A DNA stretch of 64,000 bases, from the NCBI GenBank assembly GCA_003224085.1, contig QHYK01000052.1, positions 1 through 64,000 of the forward strand. The letters are read 5' to 3'. The position numbers and the translations under genes are program-made. This DNA comes from Acidobacteriota bacterium (lineage in GTDB: Bacteria; Acidobacteriota; Terriglobia; Acidiferrales; UBA7541). Below are positions 40,357 to 41,169 of this stretch, piece by piece; the stretch's first letter is position 1; each line of letters opens with the position of its first letter. Under the pieces are notes generated by a model, which saw only the letters and a program-made list of their open reading frames with translations, searched no databases and was not told the origin of the DNA.

Positions 40357-41169
40357 ATGTCCAAGCCCAACGCGGTTCGCATCGGCATCATCGGAGACTT
40401 TGAGCCGTCCTATCATTCGCATTTCGCGACCAACGCCGCGCTCTACGATGCCGCCACGAACCTGAACTTCCCGCTCATGGTGCGCTGGATCCCGACACCC
40501 TCGCTCGACAGCGCTGACGCGGCGAAAATCCTCAGCCGTTGGGACGGCCTGATCGCCGGACCCGGCAGTCCCTACAACAGCTTCACCGGAATGCTGCGCG
40601 GCATCGAATTTGCCCGCACGCACGATTGGCCCTTCACCGGAACTTGAGGGGGCTTCCAATATACTCTGTTAGAGTATGCGCGAAATGTTTTGAAGATTGC
40701 CGACGCGGACAGCGCGGAGAATAATTCCGGCTCGTCGCACTATGTGGTCGCGCCGCTTTCCTGCAGCTTGCCGAATCGCCGCGAGGGTGGTCCCAAGGCC
40801 TCCGGGGAGGAACGCCTGAAAATTCTTCCCGGCACTCGCCTCCATTCCATTTGCGGAAGCGAAGACGATTCGGAGCAGTATTACTGCAACTACGGCGTCA
40901 ACGAAGAATACGAAAAGCAATTCCAGGCCACCGGTCTTTGCGTAAGCGCCCGCGGCATGCAGGGTGAGAGTCGCGCCGTGGAGCTGCCCAATCATCGTTT
41001 CTTTATCGCCACGTTGTTCCAGCCGCAGCTTTCGTCGCGGCCCGAGGCGCCGCACCGCTTTTGGCTGGCATTCCTGCGCGCCGCCATGCAATTCCAAAAA
41101 GCGCGCGCCAGGCGCGGTACAAGTCGCGTCTCTCACGGCAAAGCGCGCGCCAAAACCGCCGCGGGATAG
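40357..41169 (+). CDS. CTP synthase amidotransferase-domain-like selenoprotein (UGA read as Sec at codon 97)
   Basis: A frame of 270 codons interrupted only by TGA at 40645-40647. Around it the protein reads WPFTGT-(TGA)-GGFQYTLLEYA, which matches the nucleophile elbow of class I glutamine amidotransferases as in CTP synthase PyrG (GICLGMQ), with TGA in place of the catalytic cysteine codon. The frame, conservation-like composition and codon use continue unchanged to 41169. A SECIS-like hairpin follows the TGA. I recall a database family named CTP synthase C-terminal region-related (seleno)protein, not checked here. The second half of the triad is altered: QFHPE of PyrG is LFQPQ (220-224), so ordinary glutaminase activity is unlikely. 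GGAG eight bases before ATG 40357 decides the start. The alternative is a nonsense mutation. Confidence 0.8.
40645..40677 (+). promoter_or_regulatory. SECIS-like element with in-frame UGA
   Basis: After TGA (40645-40647) come 19 bases, then loop TGTTA (40667-40671) closed by the 6-bp stem ATACTC/GAGTAT (40661-40666 and 40672-40677). Bacterial SECIS elements have a short apical stem, a small loop with G in one of its first two positions (here G then T), and lie about 16-37 bases after the UGA. All three conditions hold. SelB would bind it in the mRNA. Confidence 0.65.

Follow-up and report, generated by a model that had tools for sequence, protein, structure and literature searches.

The question raised by this locus is whether an in-frame TGA codon, in a gene resembling the C-terminal part of CTP synthase, is read as selenocysteine (Sec) and what the resulting protein might do. 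The window, that is the whole stretch of DNA analysed, comprises 64,000 nucleotides of an Acidobacteriota bacterium from soil (contig QHYK01000052.1). The features discussed here are as follows.

40357..41169, forward strand: predicted stand-alone CTP-synthase-C-terminal-like selenoprotein gene, 270 residues with Sec97 (read-through translation, NF004836 at 264.3 bits)
40645..40647, forward strand: in-frame TGA, codon 97, putatively selenocysteine (aligned codons in 54 of 56 loci)
40661-40666 and 40672-40677, forward strand: stem of the candidate bacterial SECIS hairpin, loop TGTTA at 40667-40671 (six pairs, comparative support)
40762..40764, forward strand: codon for Cys136, invariant in the stand-alone rows; PyrG has E or D at this column
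40885..40887, forward strand: codon for Cys177, invariant in the stand-alone rows; PyrG has His at this column
41020..41028, forward strand: codons 222-224 (Q-P-Q), aligned with the H-P-E of PyrG, which includes its catalytic His and Glu

The in-frame TGA and its relatives

Positions 40357-41169 of the forward strand form a single frame of 271 codons when TGA is counted as a residue, with codon 97 as the sole internal stop. Read-through translation of this interval confirmed the preliminary description of a 270-codon frame interrupted by TGA alone. The probable start is the ATG at 40357, and a GGAG stands 5' of it.

The in-frame TGA aligns with a cysteine of the relatives (45 Cys codons versus nine TGA). 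Among 56 related loci in genome contigs, the aligned codon is TGC in 31, TGT in 14 and TGA in nine, such that homologues with Cys or Sec at this position, the check first proposed for this reading, are found in all but the two loci in which the codon is not aligned (L072 and L080). These counts, like the stem counts given below, include both L075 and L077, which come from one isolate and are perhaps two ends of a single gene, and L072 and L080 are without an aligned codon in both comparisons. In L080 a gap of Ns lies beside the codon and the sequence next to the gap reads Cys. L072:6001-6659 is a relative, 86% identical in its best segment, from which a stretch including the Sec codon and Cys136 is missing, with assembly error or real loss as the candidate causes. 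In a draw of 297 genomes from the phylum, 12 carry the stand-alone form (distinguished by a score of at least 250 bits, where PyrG scores 175 or less), and three of these, including the window, have TGA.

If the TGA terminated translation, the locus would be a pseudogene or would encode a 96-residue product. The lack of the codon-bearing stretch in L072, a close relative, is consistent with termination. Substitution rates 3' of the TGA argue against it, with dN/dS values of 0.056-0.193 that fall under the upstream value in each of the five comparisons made, several of the dS values being close to saturation. On these estimates, selection remains purifying past the TGA.

Comparative evidence for a SECIS hairpin

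Positions 40645-40677 read TGA GGGGGCTTCCAAT ATACTC TGTTA GAGTAT, giving a hairpin with a 5-nt loop, G second in that loop and a spacing of 19 nt after the TGA. The bacterial SECIS model, as set out in a recent review, has a loop of 3-9 nt with G in one of its first two positions, a spacing of 16-37 nt and an MFE of at most -7.5 kcal/mol (PMC13188914). The window hairpin agrees with the model in loop size, G position, spacing and MFE, the last only marginally because its MFE over 48 nt is -8.0 kcal/mol and its centroid -7.4. The folding energy is no better than that of shuffled sequences (z 0.13), a point in favor of TGA as a stop, and an Rfam search of 40500-40900 returned zero matches at E 10 or better. 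Thus, the case for the hairpin rests on comparison among relatives.

All six stem pairs are present in 12 of 12 TGA rows, namely the window and 11 relatives, and in 0 of 54 Cys rows, three of which attain five of the six pairs (66 usable rows). The associated Fisher p of 2e-13 ignores relatedness as well as two Cys rows that are probably repeats of another row. L036 and L089 are identical, and both are counted in this comparison and in the 61-row alignment described below; the stretch from L084, whose start is not at the codon, was left out of the folding comparison. Among the 10 distinct TGA sequences every stem cell is paired, while controls slid along the sequence drop to 17-65% paired, and two stem pairs are altered on both sides, as compensatory changes. 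The covariation score, the number of paired cells and the number of cells with double changes are each above all 500 shuffles. The count of pairs with double changes and the count of pair types do not go beyond the shuffles (105 and 406 of 500, respectively, reach the value). The loop reads TG(T/G)T(A/G) in all of the TGA genes, in agreement with the published pattern (PMC13188914). The hairpin originally noticed 19 bases behind the TGA is therefore borne out by its presence in the TGA rows and its absence from the Cys rows, and the retention of TGA and hairpin together in 12 genes is a second argument against termination.

Selenocysteine machinery in the host and related genomes

The host genome (6.8 Mb in 159 contigs and 97% complete) contains selA (561 bits), selB (353) and selD (345), all above cut-off, together with a tRNA-Sec bearing the anticodon TCA; all four of selA, selB, selC and selD, for which a search had been suggested, are present. 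No tRNA genes were found in the window itself. Formate-dehydrogenase-like matches with one TGA each occur in three places of the host genome, none over the family cut-off, and the two that were inspected have U in the contexts NRTUHAPSV and ARVUHGPTV. L129 and L130 are formate-dehydrogenase-like genes with in-frame TGA from this same genome. The L014 fragment was considered as a SelD with its own Sec and rejected; it lies in a frame containing many TGA codons and looks like a chance match.

These Sec genes also weigh against the TGA as a stop, a reading that we regard as extremely improbable. The gene in the window is almost certainly a selenoprotein gene, as far as sequence comparison can tell: the putative Sec is aligned with the cysteine of relatives, the hairpin is conserved and the Sec machinery of the genome is complete, so that the initial suggestion of a probable selenoprotein is upheld. 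Under the direction of the hairpin that follows, SelB and Sec-tRNA would decode the UGA at 40645-40647 to give Sec97, a course of events suggested by the comparison and by the genes present.

Across genomes, selA is above cut-off in 12 of 12 that carry the TGA form versus 39 of 48 with the Cys form (p 0.18; G084 and G308, with the same contig coordinates, were taken once). A link between the family and selenium use was considered and rejected, there being no association in the phylum draw (selA above cut-off in 7 of 12 stand-alone carriers versus 191 of 297 genomes overall).

The distribution of Sec and Cys forms was examined on a tree whose 68 rows comprise 12 Sec forms, 50 Cys forms and six of the 18 PyrG. 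The Sec label requires four changes on this tree, all four forced by well-supported branches, and shuffled labels require 11.4 on average. Long branches (L070, L088, L091 and L092) make the exact places of the changes unsure. The tree suggests at least four Sec/Cys changes in Acidobacteriota, with gains indistinguishable from losses.

A predicted CTP-synthase glutaminase fold with a largely replaced triad

The window protein belongs to NF004836 (PRK06186), the CTP synthase C-terminal region-related (seleno)protein family, narrowly over the cut-off (264.3 bits versus 260, near full-length), with the next model far lower. The preliminary description had named this family, and correctly. In a six-frame search the score is 256.8 bits, and of 10 relatives scanned six lie above the cut-off and four below it (248.3-336.9). 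Full-length CTP synthase models are not reached (NF003792, 137 bits versus 308; TIGR00337, 131.5 versus 462.75), the match being confined to the C-terminal part. Apart from the window gene, the host genome contains a PyrG-like match within an open frame of 580 aa (G000:C122).

The Pfam GATase model matches residues 27-123 of the window protein at 27.9 bits, against a gathering score of 22.8. An AlphaFold model built from 43 rows has a mean pLDDT of 87.1, and its best PDB matches are CTP synthases, including the glutamine-bound 1vco; sequence matches agree. The predicted model thus has the CTP-synthase glutaminase fold. Position 97, Sec here, occupies the nucleophile elbow of a class I amidotransferase, at what we take to be the position of Cys379 in the E. 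coli enzyme.

The remainder of the active site was compared in an alignment of 61 stand-alone rows and 18 PyrG rows, all from Acidobacteriota, with TGA entered as Cys. The alignment omits L072, L080, L074, L075, L077, L079, L028 and L090, the last being the window itself. Cys/Sec97, Gly99, Gln101, Arg109, Glu121, Glu209 and His213 are common to both groups, and Gly99, Gln101 and Glu121 are retained in 61 of 61 stand-alone rows. Glu121 presumably corresponds to E. coli Glu403, a binder of the glutamine amino group. Columns 222 and 224, presumably the catalytic His515 and Glu517 of the E. coli enzyme, are H and E in 18 of 18 PyrG rows. In the stand-alone rows, by contrast, column 222 is Q in 56, V in two, L in two and H in one (L070), and column 224 is Q in 55 and E in six. 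Two cysteines, Cys136 and Cys177, occur in every one of the 61 stand-alone rows and in none of the 18 PyrG rows, which have E/D and H there, and GGFG at columns 69-72 of PyrG becomes mostly PGSP.

Nine further members from Actinomycetota and Gammaproteobacteria, chosen among the 40 listed of 87 plasmid-collection records (many of them PyrG), comprise two near-identical Klebsiella sequences, one each from Enterobacter and Methylobacter, and five from actinomycetes. Cys97, Cys136 and Cys177 are found in all nine. His at column 222 occurs in none and Glu at column 224 in eight, and residue 121 is Q instead of Glu in one (L113). Outside Acidobacteriota it appears to be mainly the His of the triad that is gone. 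Loss of the triad is not total, given His222 in L070 and Glu224 in six of the 61 rows and in eight of the nine further members. The description of codon 97 as the catalytic cysteine of a class I amidotransferase holds for the nucleophile position and fails for the rest of the triad, as the window protein has Gln222 and Gln224 where His and Glu would complete the triad, and it shares the two invariant cysteines that PyrG lacks.

What the protein might do

We favor, with moderate confidence, a thiol/selenol enzyme carrying three invariant Cys/Sec residues on a class I amidotransferase fold like that of the C-terminal domain of CTP synthase, in which Sec97 takes the place of the nucleophile. Glutamine hydrolysis would have been lost, given that the His and Glu completing the triad in PyrG have been replaced and that two further cysteines are invariant. 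The substrate attacked or reduced by Sec97, a Cys in most relatives, would be small and probably amino-bearing, with Cys136 and Cys177 acting as resolving residues or ligands. The three residues may meet in space, the Cys136 loop being of low confidence in the AlphaFold model (residues 136-139, pLDDT under 50). Sec usually marks residues whose chemistry sulfur performs less well.

An enzyme that still works as a glutaminase or amidase, in which Gln222/Gln224 or other residues take over from the triad and Sec serves as a stronger nucleophile, is an unlikely alternative. Retention of Gly99, Gln101 and Glu121 in every stand-alone row, the Pfam GATase score, the CTP synthases (glutamine-bound 1vco among them) as fold matches and the Glu at column 224 in a minority of rows and most of the further members all speak for such an enzyme, as does the label in print, glutamine amidotransferase, in the deep-Sep paper (PMC12013277). 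Against it, 60 of 61 rows and all nine further members have another residue where PyrG has its His, columns 69-72 have mostly changed to PGSP, the frame is without a synthase domain, and the two new invariant cysteines would be left unexplained. The usual amidotransferase label of the family is probably wrong, because the catalytic partners are absent and two extra conserved cysteines are present. That the whole stand-alone family forms a separate enzyme class, a glutaminase fold turned Cys/Sec enzyme with non-amidotransferase chemistry (redox or thiol/metalloid transfer) in which Sec and Cys were exchanged several times in Acidobacteriota, is a broader proposal whose chances we consider evenly balanced.

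Repeated Sec in a family filed under amidotransferases, with the triad mostly missing in the rows examined, makes the functional label doubtful, and a label of "CTP synthase" is carried by public records, for example in Klebsiella and Enterobacter. The thiol/selenol reading names three residues as targets for one mutagenesis series.

Gene neighbourhood

The window gene lies between a class IV aminotransferase, on its upstream side, and a downstream S58 peptidase, and no operon partner pointing to a substrate was found in the loci examined. A downstream flank of 4.5 kb or more is available in 39 loci; msrA or msrB was recognized by motif in 20 of them and both in 19, all on the opposite strand and at distances of under 0.2 to about 4 kb. 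Pfam confirmed the one msrA and the one msrB that were checked. The 19 loci with both genes, L029:8635-9990 among them, have msrB and msrA together 3' of a Cys form and on the strand opposite to it. No methionine sulfoxide reductase gene was found at the 11 remaining TGA loci, where flanks are short in several cases. A GIDE-domain gene clusters across 40 of 68 loci, two of which are TGA forms (L065 and L067). Both neighbourhoods are read as synteny, since the set is dominated by relatives. In nine wider regions inspected by eye from ORF starts, L121 and L123, of the same genus, have a similar downstream gene, and no partner shared by all nine was seen. In Klebsiella (L111:2991-4681 and L119:1272-2962) the Cys form adjoins DUF488 and DUF523 genes; DUF523 is itself among the Sec families listed in the review (PMC13188914).

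A Cys member is fused in frame to an N-terminal GNAT acetyltransferase domain at L128:5511-6815 (L092/L128), and this fusion hints, weakly, at an amine-bearing substrate. In Streptomyces sp. NBC_01708 a family member follows EPSP-synthase and iPGM-type genes, from which a single small gene separates it. Enzymes of these two types open the synthesis of the organoarsenic compound bisenarsan (PMC12159101), and the pair at L113:1740-5633, on a Streptomyces plasmid, resembles the first two steps so described. An enzyme that uses three Cys/Sec ligands to act on arsenicals or related metalloid compounds would suit this arrangement. The arrangement was seen at a single locus: a tblastn search with that iPGM at E 1e-40 found no second plasmid-collection record, and the pair was not seen by eye in the other eight plasmid-collection loci (annotations and filtered ORF starts) or among the ORF starts of nine acidobacterial loci. 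We consider an arsenic-related function highly unlikely.

Comparison with known systems

The family is not new, as the name of NF004836 already says "(seleno)protein", and it is less obscure than the little-studied group first supposed, appearing as a Sec family in the 2025 deep-Sep paper and in a 2026 review table. What the present analysis adds is the Acidobacteriota set, with what the tree suggests are at least four Sec/Cys changes, and the evidence against the amidotransferase label. A literature search limited to open-licence papers found no paper on triad loss in NF004836.

The review table gives NF004836 with the motif GxUxG (PMC13188914), and the window protein has its putative Sec at this same position, where the family has Sec or Cys. 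The family name gives no function, and the published passages available do not mention the triad loss or the invariant Cys136 and Cys177. Xiao and Zhang (2025) describe a Sec member from Desulfosediminicola ganghwensis as "glutamine amidotransferase (PyrG)", COG0504 (PMC12013277). That protein is like the one described here in having a predicted Sec in place of a conserved Cys, Cys-containing relatives and a SECIS-like structure; it differs in coming from another organism group, and the likeness is one of description rather than residue by residue. The C-terminal glutaminase domain of the CTP synthase PyrG shares the fold and the Cys-elbow region with the window protein, whereas the window protein is without the synthase domain and has its His and Glu columns replaced. 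PyrG in turn has neither Cys136 nor Cys177, both of which are additions of the stand-alone family.
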